Shown: piece after piece, positions 53,298 to 60,933 of the stretch
How positions within the stretch are numbered: the first letter of the stretch is position 1
How the letters are laid out: each line of letters opens with the position of its first letter
Origin: Leptolyngbya sp. NIES-3755
Lineage (GTDB): Bacteria > Cyanobacteriota > Cyanobacteriia > Leptolyngbyales > Leptolyngbyaceae
Direction: 5' to 3'
Length of the DNA: 64,000 nucleotides
Assembly: GCA_001548435.1 (NCBI GenBank)
Contig: AP017308.1
Location: forward strand, 815,030 to 879,029
The notes under the pieces: model-generated
Seen by the model: only the letters and a program-made list of their open reading frames with translations
Told to the model about the DNA's origin: nothing
Database searches by the model: none
Program-made: the position numbers and the translations under genes

Positions 53298-56200
53298 ATG
53301 AATCACCAGGTCGAAGCCCCTCGCCTTACTCGCTCAGCAGTCTCTCCAGTTGGAACTTTTCTTCAATTTGCCGATGGTCGGGTGCAAGCCTGTGATGCTG
53401 GAGTAGAGCAATTATTGGGATGTCCAGCAGAACACTTCATTGGAAGTACGCTGGAGGATTCACTTTGGCGATCGATTCGTTCGGATGGCAACTCGATTCA
53501 GCCAGAACAGTTTCCGTCGATCATGGCGCTTCGGACTGGACAATCGCAACAAGCCGTAATGGGATTTTATCCGCGAGATGGAGATCTCGTTTGGCTGCAA
53601 GTCGATGCGACTCCTTTATTTCAGGGTGAAACGCCTTATGCTGCGGTAGTAACGCTGCGACCTGCGGTGACTCAACGCCCAGAACGATCGCAGTTAATGT
53701 TGATCGAGCAGAATCGCGTGTTGGAATTGATCGCGACAGGTCGATCGCTCGATGAGTGTTTGACAGCGGTGTGTGATGCGATCGCTCGACTCAATCCGGG
53801 GACTTGTGCCTGTTTTCTGCTAACAGATGCGGATCGTCAAAGTTTTCCGCGATCGATTACTCCAAGTTTGTCGCCTTCATTCGGACAAGGACTGAAGGAT
53901 GCCCCGATCAATGATCTTTGTATTGGAACTTGTGGAGAAGCGGTTTATCGGGGTCAGCCGATCGCCTGTGTGGACATTGCCAATGATTTACGCTGGTCGC
54001 AGGAATGGCGGGACTTGTGTATCGCACATGGGATTCTGGCGTGTCATTCTGAGCCTGTGATGGGAATTGATCAGTTGCCGCTCGGATCGTTAATGCTGTG
54101 TTTTGATCGACCCCGCAACCCGACCGAGTGGGAATATCAATTAGCAGCATTTGGAACTCAGGTTGCGAGTATTGCATTTGAGCGCGATCGCGTTTTTGCT
54201 CAAAATATTCAAACTCAGGAAGAACTTCAGCACACGAATCAAACCCTAAGTACTTTAATTTCAGCTTCTCCGTTACCGATCGTGGTCATCGAGCCAGATA
54301 GCAGAGTTAAACTTTGGAATCCAGCCGCAGAAAAAGTTTTTGGTTGGACAGAAGCAGAGATTTTAGGCGAATTCATCCCGATCGTGCCACCGGATAAGCT
54401 TGATGAATGTCAGCAACTCAGAGCCGCTGTGGTTCAAGGACAGACATTTTTTGGGATCGAGACTTATCGATCGAAGCGTAATGGAGTCCAGATCAGCGTC
54501 AGTGTCTCTGCTGCCCCACTTTATGATGATCAAGGCAAAGTCCAAGACATCATGCTCATTTTCCAGGATGTTACCGAGCGACAACGGGCAGAAGGATTAA
54601 TTCGTCAGAGTGAAGCGCGATATCGAGCCTTGATCGAACTCTCACCGCAGATTGTCTATCTCAGCAATCCGAATGGCATGATCGAGTACTGCAATCAGTG
54701 GGGACTGGATTTTACAGGTCGATCGCTCGAAGAATTGCAGGGATACGGCTGGGCAGACTTGATTCATCCGGATTATCGCGATCGAACTTACACCGCTTGG
54801 AACAATTCCATGCAAGGCAATGCGAAGTATGAAGTCGAAGTGCCGTTTCGCCGAGCAGATGGACAATATCGCTGGGTGTACTCTCATGCTTCCCCAGTGC
54901 GAAATGAACGCGGCGAGATTGAATACTGGATTGGAATTGTACTGGATATCCACGATCGTAAAGAGGCAGAACTCGCGGTTTGTCGTCGAGAAGCTGAGTT
55001 CCGATTATTAGCAGAATCGCTGCCGCAAATTGTTTGGGTGACAGATGCAGAAGGTAAAACCAGCTATGTCAATGAGCGGTGGACTGAATTCTCTGGATTA
55101 ACGTTAGAAGAAACTGCCACTCCAGAGATTCAGCAAAACGTCTTTCATCCTGATGATCTCGATCGTGTTTATCGTGAATGGGCGATCGCGTCTGATACTC
55201 GATCGATTTACCGTGTCGAAGCCCGAATGCGGAATTACAAAACTGGCGAATTTCATTGGTTTCTAATCCGCTGTGAACCTTTTATTGATGAAACTGGAAA
55301 TTTGCTCCGCTGGTTTGGTACTTCGACGGATATCACCGAAACCAAGCGCCGCGAACTGCATACCGCGTTTTTGGCAGAAATTAGTCAGGAATTGATGGTC
55401 GATCGTCTTGAACCCGAAATGATGCAAGTTTTAGGCGAAAAGATTGGTCAATTCTTCAACGTTTCCAATTGTGCGTTTGCCAAATTTGATTCCAGTCTTG
55501 ATATTGCGATCGTTTATCACGATTGGTGCAGAGATGAAACGGCTGTCAGCTTAGTCGGAGAATACCCGGTGGCTGAATTTGCTGCTGTGGAACTCTGGGA
55601 ACGCATGGAAAACAGTCAGCCTGTCGTGATCAATGATGTGGATGCTGATCCTCGAACCGCCATCTTTGCCGAACGGTATCATGCGATCGGGGTTCGGGCG
55701 TTTATGAATGCCCCGTTTGCGAGTGAACGTGGAATTCAATTCGCGATTGTTCTACATCAGTCACATCCGTATGAATGGCGACAGGATGAGATTGAACTGT
55801 TAGAGCAGTTGACCACGCGGATTTGGGCGTATTTGGAACGCGATCGCATTGATGAAGAACTGCGGCAAAAAACAGCCATCTTAAATACCATCAATGAAGC
55901 GACGGCTGCTTTGGTATATGTGAAAGATCTCCAAGGACGCTATGTTTACGCCAATCCTGCTGCACTTGAAGTCCTGGATAGACCCGCGACTGAAGTGATT
56001 GGTTTTTGCGATCGCGAGTTGTTCTCAGAGTCCATCGAAACGATCGTCGAAACGGATCAACGGATTATGAATTCCGAGCAGGTGGAAGCGATCGAAGAAA
56101 CCATTGATGGAATCCGGACATTTCTCAGCGTCAAAGCACCTCATCGGAACGAAGCGGGTGAAGTGATCGGGTTGATTGGCGTTTCAACGGACATTAGCGA

Positions 56201-57386
56201 TCGCGTTCAAATTGAACGCGATCGTGAACGAATTTTGCAGCAAGAACAAGCCGCACGAGAGGCAGCCGAACAAGCGAACCGAATCAAAGACGAATTCTTG
56301 GCAGTGCTGTCTCACGAACTACGATCGCCGCTGAATCCAATTCTCGGTTGGACAAAGATTCTCAGAACAGGCAATCTCAACCCAGAGCGGGCGGCTCACG
56401 CGCTTGAAACGATCGAGCGCAATGCTCAACTGCAATCCGAACTGATTGAAGATCTCTTAGATGTTGCCCGGATTCTGCAAGGCAAACTCAGTCTGAATGC
56501 TCGTCCAGTGAATGTTGTCATGATGATCAACTCTGCGATCGAGACAGTTCGACTGGCAGCAGAAAGTAAAGGAATCGCAATTGAAACTCACTTATCCGAA
56601 GTGGGAGAAGTGTCAGGAGATGCCACTCGTCTCCAGCAAATTGTTTGGAATCTACTCTCAAATGCAGTGAAGTTCACGCCATCTGGGGGACGAGTTACTG
56701 TTCAACTCGACTCGATCGATCATCAAGCCCAGATCACGATAACCGATACAGGGAAAGGCATTTCCCCAGATTTTCTCCCCCACGTCTTCGATTATTTCCG
56801 CCAGGAAGATGGTACAACGACTCGCAAATTTGGTGGCTTAGGATTGGGATTAGCCATTGTGCGTCACTTAGTCGAACTCCACGGGGGAACGGTAGCTGTA
56901 GCCAGTGAAGGCGAAGGACTAGGAGCAACGTTTACGGTTACTTTGCCTTTGATCAATGTTGAAGTGACACCAAGTAAAGCGATCGAGCAATCAAATCCGA
57001 ACGATCTCCGAGGAATGCGCTTACTGATGGTTGATGATGATCCCGATTCGCGTGAGTTTATTGGATTTGTTCTCGATCAAGCGGGTGCACAAGTCACGAT
57101 CGCAAGTTCAGGCACAGAAGCATTTTCACAATTAACGCGATCGCGTTTTGATGTGCTGATCAGTGATATCGGAATGCCAGATATGGATGGCTATATGCTG
57201 CTCAAACAAATCCGAAAATTACCCACGGAACAAGGGGGAAGAGTGAATGCGATCGCGCTTACAGCCTATGCGGGTGAGTTCAATCAGCAACAAGCCCTCC
57301 AAGCTGGATTCCAGGCGCATTTAGCTAAACCGATTGACCCAGAGCGATTGGTTCAAGAAGTATCGAAATTACGCGATCGACTATGA
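53298..57386 (+). CDS. Multi-PAS/GAF hybrid histidine kinase
   Basis: A 1362-residue soluble sensor. In order: PAS (~20-115), GAF (~140-300), PAS (~325-430), PAS (~435-560, NPNGMIEYCNQWGLDFTG), PAS (~565-690), GAF (~700-850), PAS (~870-985), HisKA with H1006 (SHELRSP), HATPase (NAVKFTPSGG, GLGLGLAI), and a receiver with Asp ~1290 (SDIGMPDMDGY). The third PAS and the kinase end resemble the gene at 3-1547. The GAF domains show no bilin-binding Cys-His in an obvious position, so a phytochrome role is unsupported. Confidence 0.92.
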   Translation: MNHQVEAPRLTRSAVSPVGTFLQFADGRVQACDAGVEQLLGCPAEHFIGSTLEDSLWRSIRSDGNSIQPEQFPSIMALRTGQSQQAVMGFYPRDGDLVWLQVDATPLFQGETPYAAVVTLRPAVTQRPERSQLMLIEQNRVLELIATGRSLDECLTAVCDAIARLNPGTCACFLLTDADRQSFPRSITPSLSPSFGQGLKDAPINDLCIGTCGEAVYRGQPIACVDIANDLRWSQEWRDLCIAHGILACHSEPVMGIDQLPLGSLMLCFDRPRNPTEWEYQLAAFGTQVASIAFERDRVFAQNIQTQEELQHTNQTLSTLISASPLPIVVIEPDSRVKLWNPAAEKVFGWTEAEILGEFIPIVPPDKLDECQQLRAAVVQGQTFFGIETYRSKRNGVQISVSVSAAPLYDDQGKVQDIMLIFQDVTERQRAEGLIRQSEARYRALIELSPQIVYLSNPNGMIEYCNQWGLDFTGRSLEELQGYGWADLIHPDYRDRTYTAWNNSMQGNAKYEVEVPFRRADGQYRWVYSHASPVRNERGEIEYWIGIVLDIHDRKEAELAVCRREAEFRLLAESLPQIVWVTDAEGKTSYVNERWTEFSGLTLEETATPEIQQNVFHPDDLDRVYREWAIASDTRSIYRVEARMRNYKTGEFHWFLIRCEPFIDETGNLLRWFGTSTDITETKRRELHTAFLAEISQELMVDRLEPEMMQVLGEKIGQFFNVSNCAFAKFDSSLDIAIVYHDWCRDETAVSLVGEYPVAEFAAVELWERMENSQPVVINDVDADPRTAIFAERYHAIGVRAFMNAPFASERGIQFAIVLHQSHPYEWRQDEIELLEQLTTRIWAYLERDRIDEELRQKTAILNTINEATAALVYVKDLQGRYVYANPAALEVLDRPATEVIGFCDRELFSESIETIVETDQRIMNSEQVEAIEETIDGIRTFLSVKAPHRNEAGEVIGLIGVSTDISDRVQIERDRERILQQEQAAREAAEQANRIKDEFLAVLSHELRSPLNPILGWTKILRTGNLNPERAAHALETIERNAQLQSELIEDLLDVARILQGKLSLNARPVNVVMMINSAIETVRLAAESKGIAIETHLSEVGEVSGDATRLQQIVWNLLSNAVKFTPSGGRVTVQLDSIDHQAQITITDTGKGISPDFLPHVFDYFRQEDGTTTRKFGGLGLGLAIVRHLVELHGGTVAVASEGEGLGATFTVTLPLINVEVTPSKAIEQSNPNDLRGMRLLMVDDDPDSREFIGFVLDQAGAQVTIASSGTEAFSQLTRSRFDVLISDIGMPDMDGYMLLKQIRKLPTEQGGRVNAIALTAYAGEFNQQQALQAGFQAHLAKPIDPERLVQEVSKLRDRL

Positions 57387-57638
57387 ACCTTTTTGATTCT
57401 GCGATCGAAACCGTCCCTCAATAAAATCTCGCTGTTTCAAATGCTTCGTCTTGCGTCCTGTGACTCGTTCGCGCCACATTCTGAAGCTCGATTCTTTCAT
57501 CTCCCGCCGCATTAATGCGATCGTCTGTTTTTCATCGAGTCCGAATTGCAGTTCAATGGCTTCAAAAGGGGTTCGATCTTCCCAAGCCATTTCGAGAATT
57601 CTATCGATCGTTTCACTATCTAACTCTGGTAATTTCAT
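57381..57638 (-). CDS. DUF2805/TIGR03643 protein
   Basis: An 85-residue protein (ATG at 57638; a GTG one codon earlier overlaps the xisI stop). Motifs ILEMAWEDRTPFEAIELQFG and MRREMKESSFRMWRERVTGR are diagnostic of the family, a small HTH-like fold of unknown role. It converges with the large kinase with a six-base overlap. Last gene of the minus-strand run. Confidence 0.87.
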   Translation of the reverse strand: MKLPELDSETIDRILEMAWEDRTPFEAIELQFGLDEKQTIALMRREMKESSFRMWRERVTGRKTKHLKQRDFIEGRFRSQNQKGS

Positions 57639-57641
57639 CAC

Positions 57642-57977
57642 TCACCCTACGGCATACTCTGTGAACTGTCGTTTAAACGGCGATTGAAATGCGAGAACGA
57701 TATCCCGCTTTGGTATACCTCGCTCCTCTAATTCAAGCGCAACTCCCCCTTCTGTGCCATCATGCTGAATCCAGATTTTGTCGTTTTTAATGTCAACCTG
57801 AACGACGCAACCATAGACCCGTCGCTTATTCGACCAACCTGCATGAACAAGTTGATAGCGATTGCGCTCTTTGTCAAAAATCAATTGCGCCTCAACCTCT
57901 TCATTTAGCGCCTTATACTGACTATGCTCGGTTAGAATCTCTTGAACAATCTGCCGATATTTTGCTATGTCTGCCAT
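57642..57977 (-). CDS. xisI: XisI-family protein
   Basis: A 111-residue protein with the family pattern YRQIVQEILTEHSQY, LIFDKERNRYQLVHAGW, and IWIQHDGTEGGVALEL. XisI is one of the excision controlling factors of the fdxN element of heterocystous cyanobacteria. Family members are widespread, and here no nif element is near, so that role does not apply directly. The start overlaps xisH by 13 bases. Confidence 0.9.
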   Translation of the reverse strand: MADIAKYRQIVQEILTEHSQYKALNEEVEAQLIFDKERNRYQLVHAGWSNKRRVYGCVVQVDIKNDKIWIQHDGTEGGVALELEERGIPKRDIVLAFQSPFKRQFTEYAVG

Positions 57978-58381
57978 CTCACAATCACCTCAGTTTCTGG
58001 CTGATAAACAATCAATCGAACACCATAGCGCTCCACTAATCGACGGGGCAATTCTAAACTAAAAAACGACTGAGCAACATCATCAGGAATCGCTAAATAT
58101 AGTTTACGATCTGGGTCTGTTTCTTCTAACGCAAGTTGATATTTCAAAAATTGTCCCAGAGCAGTACTAAACTCTGTTGTTTCTGATGCTCCGATAAAGC
58201 TTTTGATTTCTACTGCAATTCTTTCATCGTTTTTCTCAGCCGCAATAACCTTTTCAGCCCCTAAATCAATGTATAGTTCTACACCTCCAAAGCGCAGAAA
58301 TAAAGGATCATGCGTAATCTGCCAACCCTCTTTCTGCAATCCACGTTTCACGGCATCATGAAATAGATCTTTCGCTGGCAT
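57965..58381 (-). CDS. xisH: XisH-family protein (PD-(D/E)XK-like fold)
   Basis: The ATG at 58381 (MPAKDLFHDAVKRGLQKEGW) is the family start; a longer frame from 58429 lies in the preceding gene. The 138-residue protein has the nuclease-like ELYIDLGAE and IAVEIKSF, the D-x(n)-ExK site of PD-(D/E)XK enzymes. XisH works with XisI in the fdxN system. It overlaps the Uma2 gene by 26 bases and xisI by 13, so the genes are coupled. Confidence 0.9.
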   Translation of the reverse strand: MPAKDLFHDAVKRGLQKEGWQITHDPLFLRFGGVELYIDLGAEKVIAAEKNDERIAVEIKSFIGASETTEFSTALGQFLKYQLALEETDPDRKLYLAIPDDVAQSFFSLELPRRLVERYGVRLIVYQPETEVIVRWQT

Positions 58382-58970
58382 TGTTATTGCCCTGAATCGC
58401 TTGCTGAAAAGTTTTGATTGCATCAACATGATTCACCATATTGATACAGCGTAAGAGCAATTCGAGATCGAGTCCCGGAACTGCTTCACTGTTCGATATC
58501 TTTTCGTATCGAAGTTGCTCACCTTCTGAACGCAAATGATAGACCTCCAAAACGCCATCTTCCCAGAACCATACTTCTGAGATTTTGAGCCGTTTGTAAG
58601 CTTTGAGTTTATCGATGCCGCCACTCGTGAAGACGACCTCGATCGCTAAATCCGGACGCGATCGACCCGGTGCAAGCTTGTACGATTCATCTGCCTCTCG
58701 CTTTACAGATCCAATACTTTCTAACGTCATTGAACCTGTAGGAGTAAAGTCAAACCCTACTTGAAACAAATAGAGTCCTAAAAGAGCATTGATTCGTGCT
58801 TTGAGTACTTCATGCGGTTCACCGGGCATTTGTCGAATCTCCAGCGTTCCATCTAAAAAAGAAAGGCGATAACCCGGTCGATCGAGTAATTGCTCAACCG
58901 CTTTAAATTCCTGCCAGGTCAGCGATTCAAATAGCATTGGAGTTGGCTTTTGAGAAAGCGCGATCGTCAT
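58356..58970 (-). CDS. Uma2-family endonuclease
   Basis: A 204-residue PD-(D/E)XK protein of the Uma2 (DUF820) family, strongly expanded in cyanobacteria. Motifs are YRLSFLDGTLEIRQMPGEPH, GRSRPDLAIEVVFTSGG (Asp and Glu of the site) and KRLKISEVWFWEDGVLEVY (Lys and Trp). Their role is unclear; many are thought to be nucleases of mobile origin. It follows the next Uma2 gene by four bases. Confidence 0.9.
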   Translation of the reverse strand: MTIALSQKPTPMLFESLTWQEFKAVEQLLDRPGYRLSFLDGTLEIRQMPGEPHEVLKARINALLGLYLFQVGFDFTPTGSMTLESIGSVKREADESYKLAPGRSRPDLAIEVVFTSGGIDKLKAYKRLKISEVWFWEDGVLEVYHLRSEGEQLRYEKISNSEAVPGLDLELLLRCINMVNHVDAIKTFQQAIQGNNNASERSIS

Positions 58971-58974
58971 AGAA

Positions 58975-59610
58975 CTACTCCTGGTTTAGCTTCTGTCTCA
59001 AAGTGCGAATGGCTGCACTGGTCGATCGCTCTGAGGCAATTTGCTCACATTCTGCAACAATGTCCAGAATCGGAACATTTGGGAAAAAGCGACTCTTTTC
59101 CTGAAGCACATAAGCATCATTCTCGAATCCATAAATCCGAAGTTGCTTTTTCTTGTACATCCACACTTCTGGCACTTTGAATGGTAGATAGTCATCAACT
59201 TTGCTGTAGCTAGTAACATCCATTTCAATGACTAAATCAAACGGTGGATCAACTTGCCAATCAATTCGATATTTACCTGATCCAATCCGCCAGTTGTTAA
59301 TGTAGAAGCAAACATCTGGCTCGATACCGTATGCCTCTGGTAAGGTCATGGTGACAGGAGTGTAAGCACTATATTCCTGCTCCAAATGATCCAGAATTGT
59401 TTTTACAATATCGCCGAGTAGATTTGCGCCATATCCATGAACGGGTAAGGGTGACATCAGTAGAATCTCTCCATCTCGATACTTCATTCGAGGGATCGAT
59501 CCGTCTCCTCGTTGTTCACTCAAGGTGATGTAGTCTTGCCAAGTTCCCGGAAGTTTTAGAACGGCTCCGGGAGGCAGTTCAATACGATCGCGTGATACTA
59601 ATGCAAACAT
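58975..59610 (-). CDS. Uma2-family endonuclease
   Basis: A 211-residue Uma2 protein, distinct from its neighbour. Motifs are MKYRDGEILLMSPLPVHGYG, GIEPDVCFYI, PFDLVIEMDVTS and YLPFKVPEVWMYKKKQLRIY. The Asp, Glu and Lys of a PD-(D/E)XK site can be placed, so it may be active. It begins 12 bases after pepP, with AAGGAG before the ATG. Confidence 0.9.
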   Translation of the reverse strand: MFALVSRDRIELPPGAVLKLPGTWQDYITLSEQRGDGSIPRMKYRDGEILLMSPLPVHGYGANLLGDIVKTILDHLEQEYSAYTPVTMTLPEAYGIEPDVCFYINNWRIGSGKYRIDWQVDPPFDLVIEMDVTSYSKVDDYLPFKVPEVWMYKKKQLRIYGFENDAYVLQEKSRFFPNVPILDIVAECEQIASERSTSAAIRTLRQKLNQE

Positions 59611-59622
59611 CGCTCATTCTCC

Positions 59623-60933
59623 TTATCGTTCCATTGCTTCAACGGATTTCGGAACTGCTGCGGTCAGTACTTCATTTCCAGTGTCAGTGACTAGCACATC
59701 ATCTTCAATCCGAATGCCAATTCCTCGCCAGCGATCAGGCACTTCCGGCTGTCCTTCTAAAGGTTCAAAGTCCGATCGAATATAAATTCCTGGTTCCACT
59801 GTGATCACTTGTCCCGCTTGGAAGTTCAGCCAGTTTTCACCAATTTTCCGTGCTCCTGCATCATGCACATCTAATCCGAGCCAATGTCCAGTTCCGTGCA
59901 TAAAGAAAGCTTTGTACTTCTCTTCTTTGATGATTTCTTCAATGTCTCCTTGCATTAAACCAAGCTCCATTAAGCCTTCAGTAATCACTCGCACTGCTGT
60001 ATCGTGAAACTGATTCCAAGGATTTCCAGGCTTGATTTGCTCGATCGCTGCAAGTTGCGCTTTCAACACTAATTCATACAAAATCCGCTGCTCCTCAGTA
60101 AACTGATCGCCTACTGGATAAGTCCGAGTAATATCCGAGTTGTAATAGTTGTAAGAACATCCCGCATCAATCAGCAATAGTTCACCGTCTTGCATTTGTC
60201 GATCGTTCTCGGTGTAGTGCAGAATGCAGGAATTATTCCCGGAAGCCACGATCGAGGGATAAGCAATTCCTTGCCCGCCTCTCAGCCTGAATAGATGTTC
60301 CATCTGCGCCTGAATTTCATACTCATACAGTCCAGGCTTACGAATGTCGATCGCTAAATTATGAGCTTCCGCCGCAATTTCCACGGCTCGTCGCATCTCA
60401 GAGAGTTCATATTCGCTTTTCACCACTCGCATTGGATGGAGCGTGAAAGCAGGATCTTCGATCGCGGTAGGTCCAACTCCATTTCGATCGTACAGCGCAA
60501 GAAACCGCTGCCAAAGTCTGAGAACTCGATTATTAAATCCTTGATCGCGTCCGAAGTGATAGTAAAGCCGTTCTGCTTTAGTCACATATTGCGCCAATTT
60601 TTCATCCAATTCGTTAATCGGATAAGCCTCATCGGCTCCATACTTCTCCTTCGCCGCTTCGACTCCAATTCGATAGCCTGTCCAAGTTTCCTTCAGTCGA
60701 TCCTTCGGCTGCACGAACAGAATAAACTTATGCTCCTCATGCCAAGGTGCAAAGACCGCAACCGCATCCGCTTCATTAAATCCTGTAAGGTAGAAAAAAT
60801 CGCTATCCTGGCGATAATTGTATTCCACATCATTGTGCATGACAGCCATCGGCGCACTGCGGAAAATCGCGGTTCCGTTGCCGATTTTAGACATAAAGCG
60901 ATCGCGGCGTTGCTTGAATTCGGAATGGAGCAT
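59623..60933 (-). CDS. pepP: Xaa-Pro aminopeptidase (aminopeptidase P)
   Basis: A 436-residue creatinase-fold metallopeptidase removing N-terminal residues before proline. The N-terminal domain reads FYLTGFNEADA. Metal ligands are in LLIDAGCSYNYYNSDITRT (two Asp), MHGTGHWLGLDVHDAG (His), TVEPGIY (Glu) and GIRIEDDVLVT (Glu). Cytosolic. First gene of the six-gene minus-strand run; the rest is unrelated in function. Confidence 0.95.
   Translation of the reverse strand: MLHSEFKQRRDRFMSKIGNGTAIFRSAPMAVMHNDVEYNYRQDSDFFYLTGFNEADAVAVFAPWHEEHKFILFVQPKDRLKETWTGYRIGVEAAKEKYGADEAYPINELDEKLAQYVTKAERLYYHFGRDQGFNNRVLRLWQRFLALYDRNGVGPTAIEDPAFTLHPMRVVKSEYELSEMRRAVEIAAEAHNLAIDIRKPGLYEYEIQAQMEHLFRLRGGQGIAYPSIVASGNNSCILHYTENDRQMQDGELLLIDAGCSYNYYNSDITRTYPVGDQFTEEQRILYELVLKAQLAAIEQIKPGNPWNQFHDTAVRVITEGLMELGLMQGDIEEIIKEEKYKAFFMHGTGHWLGLDVHDAGARKIGENWLNFQAGQVITVEPGIYIRSDFEPLEGQPEVPDRWRGIGIRIEDDVLVTDTGNEVLTAAVPKSVEAMER

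Follow-up and report, generated by a model that had tools for sequence, protein, structure and literature searches.

XisH and XisI are known from the fdxN element of Anabaena PCC 7120, and works by Ramaswamy (1997) and Hwang (2014) reportedly deal with the two proteins of that element. In many genomes their relatives are annotated as 'element excision factors'. A second point of comparison is provided by type II toxin–antitoxin modules, which include RelBE, VapBC and HigBA. Here a stretch of 64,000 nucleotides from Leptolyngbya sp. NIES-3755 (contig AP017308.1, positions 815,030 to 879,029; hereafter the window) is considered, in which xisH and xisI form part of a minus-strand gene run, pepP–Uma2–Uma2–XisH–XisI–DUF2805, whose six genes were assigned with Pfam profiles (Table 1). 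No fitting recombinase lies near any copy of the pair in this genome. Comparison with related genomes suggests that XisH and XisI (together XisHI) probably constitute a self-contained mobile module of toxin–antitoxin type, made up of a nuclease and its inhibitor.

XisH would be a small PD-(D/E)XK nuclease, presumably cutting DNA and presumably harmful to its host when unrestrained. XisI, encoded by the next, overlapping frame, would restrain it, most simply by direct binding. If XisH is restrained in this way, it should hardly ever be kept without XisI, and XisI should outlive XisH; as a module decays, XisH would go first and XisI would stay. A nuclease/inhibitor module should also have a mostly conserved catalytic site and be able to land in unrelated places.

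Pairing and decay were followed in 28 genomes picked for having XisH and few contigs; set 1 comprises 12 of these (up to about 10 contigs) and set 2 the 16 others (up to about 220). XisH was counted as intact if at least 118 of 134 profile positions were present without a stop, and XisI if at least 90 of 110 were. A pair was defined as two genes on the same strand less than 1 kb apart, and co-orientation is thus built into the definition. Merging of gene fragments took XisH loci from 102 to 96 and XisI loci from 122 to 121 in set 1, and from 99 to 92 and from 123 to 120, respectively, in set 2; loci at contig edges were included. Across the 28 genomes XisI is found as an adjacent, co-oriented partner, within 1 kb on the same strand, of 135 of 136 intact XisH, and an intact XisI adjoins 134 of them. 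XisI is located downstream of XisH in 90/90 paired loci of set 1 and 83/85 of set 2. A broken XisH stands next to an intact XisI 38 times and the reverse occurs once. The 96 XisH loci of set 1 comprise 71 with both genes intact, 18 with broken XisH and intact XisI, one with intact XisH and broken XisI, and six XisH without XisI (one of intact length, five broken); a further 15 intact and 12 broken XisI have no XisH. Among the 92 XisH loci of set 2, all 63 intact XisH have an intact XisI, broken XisH accompanies intact XisI at 20 loci with no case of the reverse, both genes are broken in two pairs, and seven broken XisH stand alone; 25 intact and 10 broken XisI lack XisH. Binomial tests against the length share gave p=0.0002 for set 1 and p=6e-6 for set 2, or p=0.001 for set 2 under stricter length limits. 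Distances within the two proteins also correlate, as in coevolution (mirror tree r=0.687, n=71), the maximum in 1000 permutations being 0.192. Among longer runs of the two genes, HII was found three times and hII once, HHI was not found, and a single hIh run consists of two XisH fragments around XisI. Tandem XisHI pairs are present in four genomes (G008, G048, G046 and G108), as HIHI twice and HIhi twice; in some of them one of the pairs has decayed.

The putative catalytic site is conserved in most copies. Asp39, Glu58 and Lys60 (D39, E58 and K60), placed by alignment to the motif of the PD-(D/E)XK superfamily, are what we take to be the catalytic residues of XisH. In the intact XisH of set 1 (n=73), E58 and K60 are each present in 73/73 and D39 in 71/73. 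One of the two Asp39 exceptions is a paired copy (G091 C1:2118459, Asn). The other (G008 C10:139020, Gln) is the sole full-length XisH with no XisI near it, and 10 of its 33 conserved columns are changed. A putative toxin is thus not kept without its putative antitoxin save in two cases, one without the catalytic Asp and one in which D, E and K are all retained. In a further set of named genomes and viral contigs XisI is directly downstream of XisH at 82/82 loci, and 81/82 keep D, E and K. The named part of this set holds the best 80, by similarity, of at least 566 XisH-coding stretches, and its retrieval pattern contains the catalytic E and K, so that E/K conservation there is not independent evidence. 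It overlaps set 1 by at least one genome, L328 and L099 occupying the same place on a contig of 802,978 bases.

One-sided decay could also be produced if XisI served the host as a regulator in its own right and XisH were a dispensable, non-toxic partner decaying neutrally. The 40 intact XisI (15 and 25 in the two sets) lacking any XisH less than 1 kb away on the same strand indicate that XisI alone can persist. This explanation is nevertheless unlikely. Neutral decay would not give the invariant E58 and K60, or the near-invariant D39, of intact XisH; hardly any intact XisH lacks XisI, and the single one that does has no Asp39; and XisI without XisH is itself often broken (12 and 10). The first-pass annotation of this DNA had suggested that the group might be toxin–antitoxin-like, with XisI as a partner or control of XisH, and that suggestion fits the pairing, the one-sided decay and the conservation of the catalytic residues. 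As far as genome comparison can speak, support for reading XisHI as a toxin–antitoxin-like pair is strong.

Several observations weigh against this reading. At one locus (G000 C1:3627594) XisH is open and retains D, E and K next to an XisI that carries an internal TAG; this XisH has changes in two conserved columns (L to P and F to L), and 16 intact XisI elsewhere in the same genome could provide protection in trans. Two paired XisH also lack Asp39 (G091 C1:2118459, with Asn, and L281, with Tyr), and the copy without XisI is thus not alone in having lost the catalytic Asp. The loci share descent, and the binomial p values therefore overstate independence and serve as a guide only; under the stricter length limits the set 2 counts become 20 versus 3. 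The decay counts stand without a known toxin–antitoxin pair or an ordinary operon as control, and a second useful role of XisI would likewise yield one-sided decay. Above noise, the fold of XisI has no counterpart among known folds outside its family. A toxin-first gene order is found in a minority of type II systems, and if xisI mutants of Anabaena are viable, a simple lethal-toxin model requires protection in trans. Finally, excision of the Anabaena fdxN element requires both xisH and xisI, which is a real other role, as described in passages of PMC4874684.

Both proteins have the folds expected from their families. XisH matches the solved homologues 2INB (E 4.3e-42) and 2OKF (E 4e-41), and its model (predicted local distance difference test score, pLDDT, 91) superposes on 2okf_A with TMq 0.89 and a root-mean-square deviation (rmsd) of 1.2; the model also matches nicking and type IIS restriction enzymes, albeit weakly. 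XisI matches 3D7Q and 2NLV, and its model (pLDDT 92.4) reaches Z 17–19 with four XisI entries, the superposition on 2nlv_A having Z 19.3 and rmsd 1.3 over 111 aligned residues. Outside its own family no listed chain exceeds Z 4.3 (VIA-align), and no DNA-binding domain was recognised in XisI. Kinship of XisI with known immunity or antitoxin proteins was considered and set aside, the first non-XisI match in Foldseek being a type VI secretion system effector–immunity chain at E 0.11 and TMq 0.28. No XisH–XisI complex is present among the PDB matches listed. The long open frames examined (XisH of 459 and 284 amino acids, XisI of 301) contain no fusion of XisH to XisI. In one of these (L094:6511-7887, G048 C11) XisH forms the C-terminal part of a 459-residue frame with a long uncharacterised N-terminal region, followed by XisI and then by a second XisH–XisI pair. 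At another locus (L141:7495-8397, G107 C3) a lone XisI continues in one open frame behind what appears by eye to be a truncated histidine-kinase ATPase domain, as if it had landed in a kinase gene.

The history of the locus was followed by seeking orthologues of Uma2b and DUF2805 in 42 genomes of the family and comparing their flanks with the window genes. In three genomes of the same genus (G161, G160 and G159) the order is pepP–Uma2a–Uma2b–DUF2805, without XisHI. A fourth congener (G107) has pepP–Uma2a–DUF2805, with neither Uma2b nor XisHI, and in two other members of the family (G033 and G153) DUF2805 directly follows pepP. Another genome (G158) holds both DUF2805 and pepP in a different order, and pepP was not found in the 1.5-kb flanks of the rest of the 27 DUF2805 loci examined; among all 27, the window genome alone has XisHI. 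Close relatives of the window thus hold an empty site (loci L223, L224 and L225), as expected of a mobile cassette. DNA homology to these sites runs from 58559 to 58393/58392 at 79–89% identity and resumes at 57639/57638 at 86–96%; the break from 58393 to 57638 gives the size of the insert. The cassette begins 11 bp ahead of the xisH ATG, ends 3 bp past the xisI stop and otherwise consists of just the two open reading frames.

The same comparison accounts for one of the two gene overlaps. In L223 the Uma2b frame ends in QAIQQ followed by TGA, a stop that shares bases with the start of DUF2805 (ATGA). The window copy of Uma2b has lost this stop, and its last 11 residues (GNNNASERSIS) come from the cassette. 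The 26-base overlap of Uma2b with XisH is therefore a by-product, Uma2b reading 11 residues into the inserted DNA. Since XisHI is missing at the locus in four congeners, their absence is most simply explained by a single gain in the lineage of the window genome, and the direction of change is accordingly best taken as gain rather than repeated loss; the cassette would have entered the pepP run at the junction between an older Uma2 gene and DUF2805. By pepP, G161 is closer to the window genome than G107 (96.8% versus 93.7%), as it is by the histidine kinase behind DUF2805 (84.6–85.9% versus 79.4%). Uma2a and DUF2805 slightly favour G107 (86.3% versus 81.0% in G161, and 97.7% versus 96.5%). As G107 has no Uma2b, this gene was either lost there or gained more than once. 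Judged from these loci the run is put together stepwise and is not one unit, and the two Uma2 genes would be separate occupants of the same slot.

Beyond this locus, a sample of 146 genomes from the same class contains 76 with XisH. The nearest relatives of the window XisH in named genomes are 68.6–72.5% identical and belong to Nostoc and other Nostocales, Richelia and Leptolyngbyaceae (among the best 80 of at least 566), with 72% for G121; the eight intact paired XisH of the window's own genome are only 31–56% identical among themselves. Alignments of the two-gene core to 11 relatives extend over 618–743 bp at 65–71% DNA identity, and at the settings used the flanks of the window copy (up to 2.5 kb on each side) match none of the 11. 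The cassette would thus move between genomes as a bare two-gene piece of about 740 bp. The 13-base XisH/XisI overlap, with an ATG start for XisI, recurs in 11/11 near relatives (L279–L288 and L148). XisH was found in 36 of 72,556 plasmid records, in none of the 50,697 phage records searched and in two viral contigs. Seven XisH–XisI pairs (L289, L292, L320, L336, L346, L348 and L358) come from records labelled KSB1, Gammaproteobacteria, Chloroflexales, Pyrinomonadaceae, Bacteroidetes, Parabeggiatoa and Thiotrichaceae; these are mostly metagenome-assembled genomes, whose labels may be wrong.

A different explanation is that XisHI controls site-specific recombination as in the fdxN element, with XisI as directionality factor and XisH serving the serine recombinase XisF as nuclease or scaffold. 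Passages in three papers describe the role in fdxN excision and a XisF–XisH–XisI model (PMC4874684, PMC4853749, PMC5311408), and the pairing and conserved nuclease residues are compatible with it. A search with PF07508, which covered the window's own genome only, found no large serine recombinase near XisHI, and hence no XisF-type partner on the same element. The single PF07508 recombinase of that genome (C1:6087945), set against 12 XisH loci, is hundreds of kilobases from the nearest XisHI, and a role in fdxN excision thus does not explain the copies of this genome. The insert at the window locus holds only xisHI and no recombinase. A Thiomargarita genome is described, in a passage of PMC4853749, as having xisHI without an xisF homologue. 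Control of recombination also gives no reason why XisI outlasts XisH, and as an account of these genes it is quite improbable.

The first-pass annotation had described a run of two Uma2 genes, XisH and XisI in overlapping genes behind pepP, with overlaps of 26 and 13 bases that it read as suggesting a functional unit. The coordinates and Pfam matches agree with the run and its overlaps; the range given there also takes in DUF2805, which it left unnamed, the other five genes being as named. Both Uma2 matches exceed the PF05685 cut-off of 27 bits. The window's own genome has 12 XisH loci (9 intact), 18 XisI loci (16 intact) and 89 Uma2 matches; all three being common, mere co-occurrence says little. 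Uma2 lies within 1.5 kb of 13/107 XisHI regions in the 12 genomes of set 1, compared with 62/1,325 random positions (about 2.6-fold) and with 8/159 control positions, three per control region (Fisher p=0.03). The 107 regions include those with broken XisH and those with XisI alone; the controls are 53 of 60 randomly drawn regions; they held no XisH or XisI, and one of them (L202) runs into the end of the XisHI region L145. In five regions of the window's own genome the Uma2 profile recovered 7/7 known Uma2 matches. In the other collections 17/82 XisHI loci have Uma2 within 1.5 kb, four or five of them representing one related Nostoc block. Uma2 density per 100 kb in set 1 is uneven, at 4.7 (0–500 bp), 3.5 (500–1500 bp), 0.6 (1.5–3 kb), 3.3 (3–5 kb) and 1.35 (5–7.5 kb) against 1.30 in controls; in the named set it is 7.8 at 0–500 bp and 3.9 at 500–1500 bp. 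Order, strand and Uma2 type are mixed.

That the four genes make up a single nuclease system is consistent with their overlaps, with this excess and with the Nostoc block, which is close to the window XisH and has Uma2 just upstream of XisHI. It is hardly tenable: the three congeners with an empty site keep the Uma2 pair without XisHI, order and strand vary, the Uma2b/XisH overlap came with the insertion, and tblastn at E 1e-4 aligns the Nostoc Uma2 with neither Uma2a nor Uma2b. Uma2 was rejected as a partner of XisHI on the empty sites and the weak enrichment. The functional unit proposed to include the Uma2 genes is thus not borne out. The co-occurrence of Uma2 with xisHI comes close to the random association that the first-pass annotation had named as counting against its idea, yet a mild excess remains; this is real but small and is best read as reflecting shared permissive landing places.

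Any benefit that the proposed nuclease/inhibitor module confers on itself or its host would probably be addiction or defence. XisHI might serve phage defence instead of addiction, through abortive infection or through DNA cleavage that follows inactivation of XisI, and this would be compatible with the nuclease/inhibitor reading. Its anatomy, the many diverged copies per genome and the horizontal spread point in this direction, as does the neighbouring Uma2b, which matches the PADLOC profile PDC-S17 with 236 bits (Uma2a 86 bits); going by its name, we take this profile to be a phage-defence candidate. Among the PADLOC models XisH has no match and XisI has only a weak one to part of GajB (E 0.0019), so that the pair corresponds to no PADLOC system, and a role in defence is on balance rather unlikely. 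Matches of the Uma2b sequence to solved designed proteins were judged spurious.

Table 1. Features of the pepP–DUF2805 run, in window coordinates
Feature	Position	Strand	Basis
pepP, Xaa-Pro aminopeptidase; left border of slot	59623-60933	-	PF00557 Peptidase_M24 223.3 bits and PF05195 AMP_N 139.3 bits
Uma2a, predicted PD-(D/E)XK endonuclease; older slot occupant	58975-59610	-	PF05685 75.7 bits; same-locus orthologues in G107, G161, G160, G159
Uma2b, predicted PD-(D/E)XK endonuclease; older slot occupant, outside XisHI module	58356-58970	-	PF05685 51.4 bits; same-locus orthologues in G161, G160, G159
XisH, PD-(D/E)XK nuclease-fold protein; proposed toxin	57965-58381	-	PF08814 187.5 bits (cut-off 25)
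XisI, small alpha/beta protein; proposed XisH inhibitor	57642-57977	-	PF08869 154.8 bits (cut-off 25)
DUF2805/TIGR03643; right border of slot	57381-57641	-	PF10985 117.5 bits; start GTG 57641 or ATG 57638
Inserted xisHI cassette, ~754 bp, junctions +/- few bases	57639-58392	-	Empty-site comparison with L223, L224, L225
26-base Uma2b/XisH overlap	58356-58381	-	XisH start taken as MPAKD methionine (58381)
13-base XisH/XisI overlap	57965-57977	-	Same XisH start, MPAKD methionine (58381)

The 3' end of the DUF2805 gene overlaps a convergent multi-PAS hybrid histidine kinase (53298-57386) by six bases (57381-57386).

A wider proposal is plausible, if tentative: xisHI may be a large unrecognised family of mobile nuclease/inhibitor pairs of toxin–antitoxin type, occurring in roughly one of every two genomes sampled from the class and, going by how records are labelled, in Beggiatoa-like gammaproteobacteria, Chloroflexales, Bacteroidetes and other groups. 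In that case the fdxN role would be that of one copy secondarily co-opted, with XisI restraining a nuclease which helps or licenses recombination, and this would offer a fresh account of why fdxN excision takes two proteins beyond the recombinase. If the pair is of toxin–antitoxin type, hundreds of genes are misnamed, given the at least 566 XisH-coding stretches; the sequences lead to the prediction that XisH alone would harm the cell, that an Asp39 mutant would not and that XisI would rescue. The empty sites show that a bare two-gene cassette without its own recombinase can settle in a gene run, and that insertion can create, in passing, an overlap which hints at a functional unit. In the literature searched, thinly for subscription journals, no paper combined 'fdxN element excision' with 'toxin-antitoxin', and no proposal of XisHI as a toxin–antitoxin pair was recognised among the matches listed.

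With the fdxN element of Anabaena PCC 7120 the window pair shares both protein families (PF08814 and PF08869) and their solved homologues (2OKF, 2INB, 2NLV, 2NVM, 2NWV and 3D7Q). Unlike that element, the window cassette lies in a pepP run with no XisF-type recombinase near it in this genome, which contains many copies, and its family exhibits the one-sided decay of a toxin–antitoxin pair. Like type II toxin–antitoxin modules, XisHI is small, with adjacent, co-oriented and overlapping frames and strict pairing, spreads horizontally, has plasmid copies and has a second gene that outlives the first. In contrast to them, its first gene encodes a PD-(D/E)XK fold, presumably acting on DNA, its neutralisation by XisI is a proposal, and XisI has no recognised DNA-binding domain. 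Type II antitoxins often autoregulate via such a domain, which is common among them and not universal. XisH and XisI domains are shared with the extracellular contractile injection system (eCIS) toxins of a 2024 paper, in passages of which both are listed as 'cloud' domains of predicted toxins in Moorena; toxin status is a prediction there, and the passages contain no toxicity test (PMC11297309). Uma2 (COG4636) has been described, in passages of Makarova 2009, as a 'likely solo toxin' of cyanobacteria which forms paralogue cassettes; the words XisH and XisI are absent from its main text (PMC2701414). The Uma2a–Uma2b tandem corresponds to such a paralogue cassette, and XisH differs from it in having a dedicated partner.

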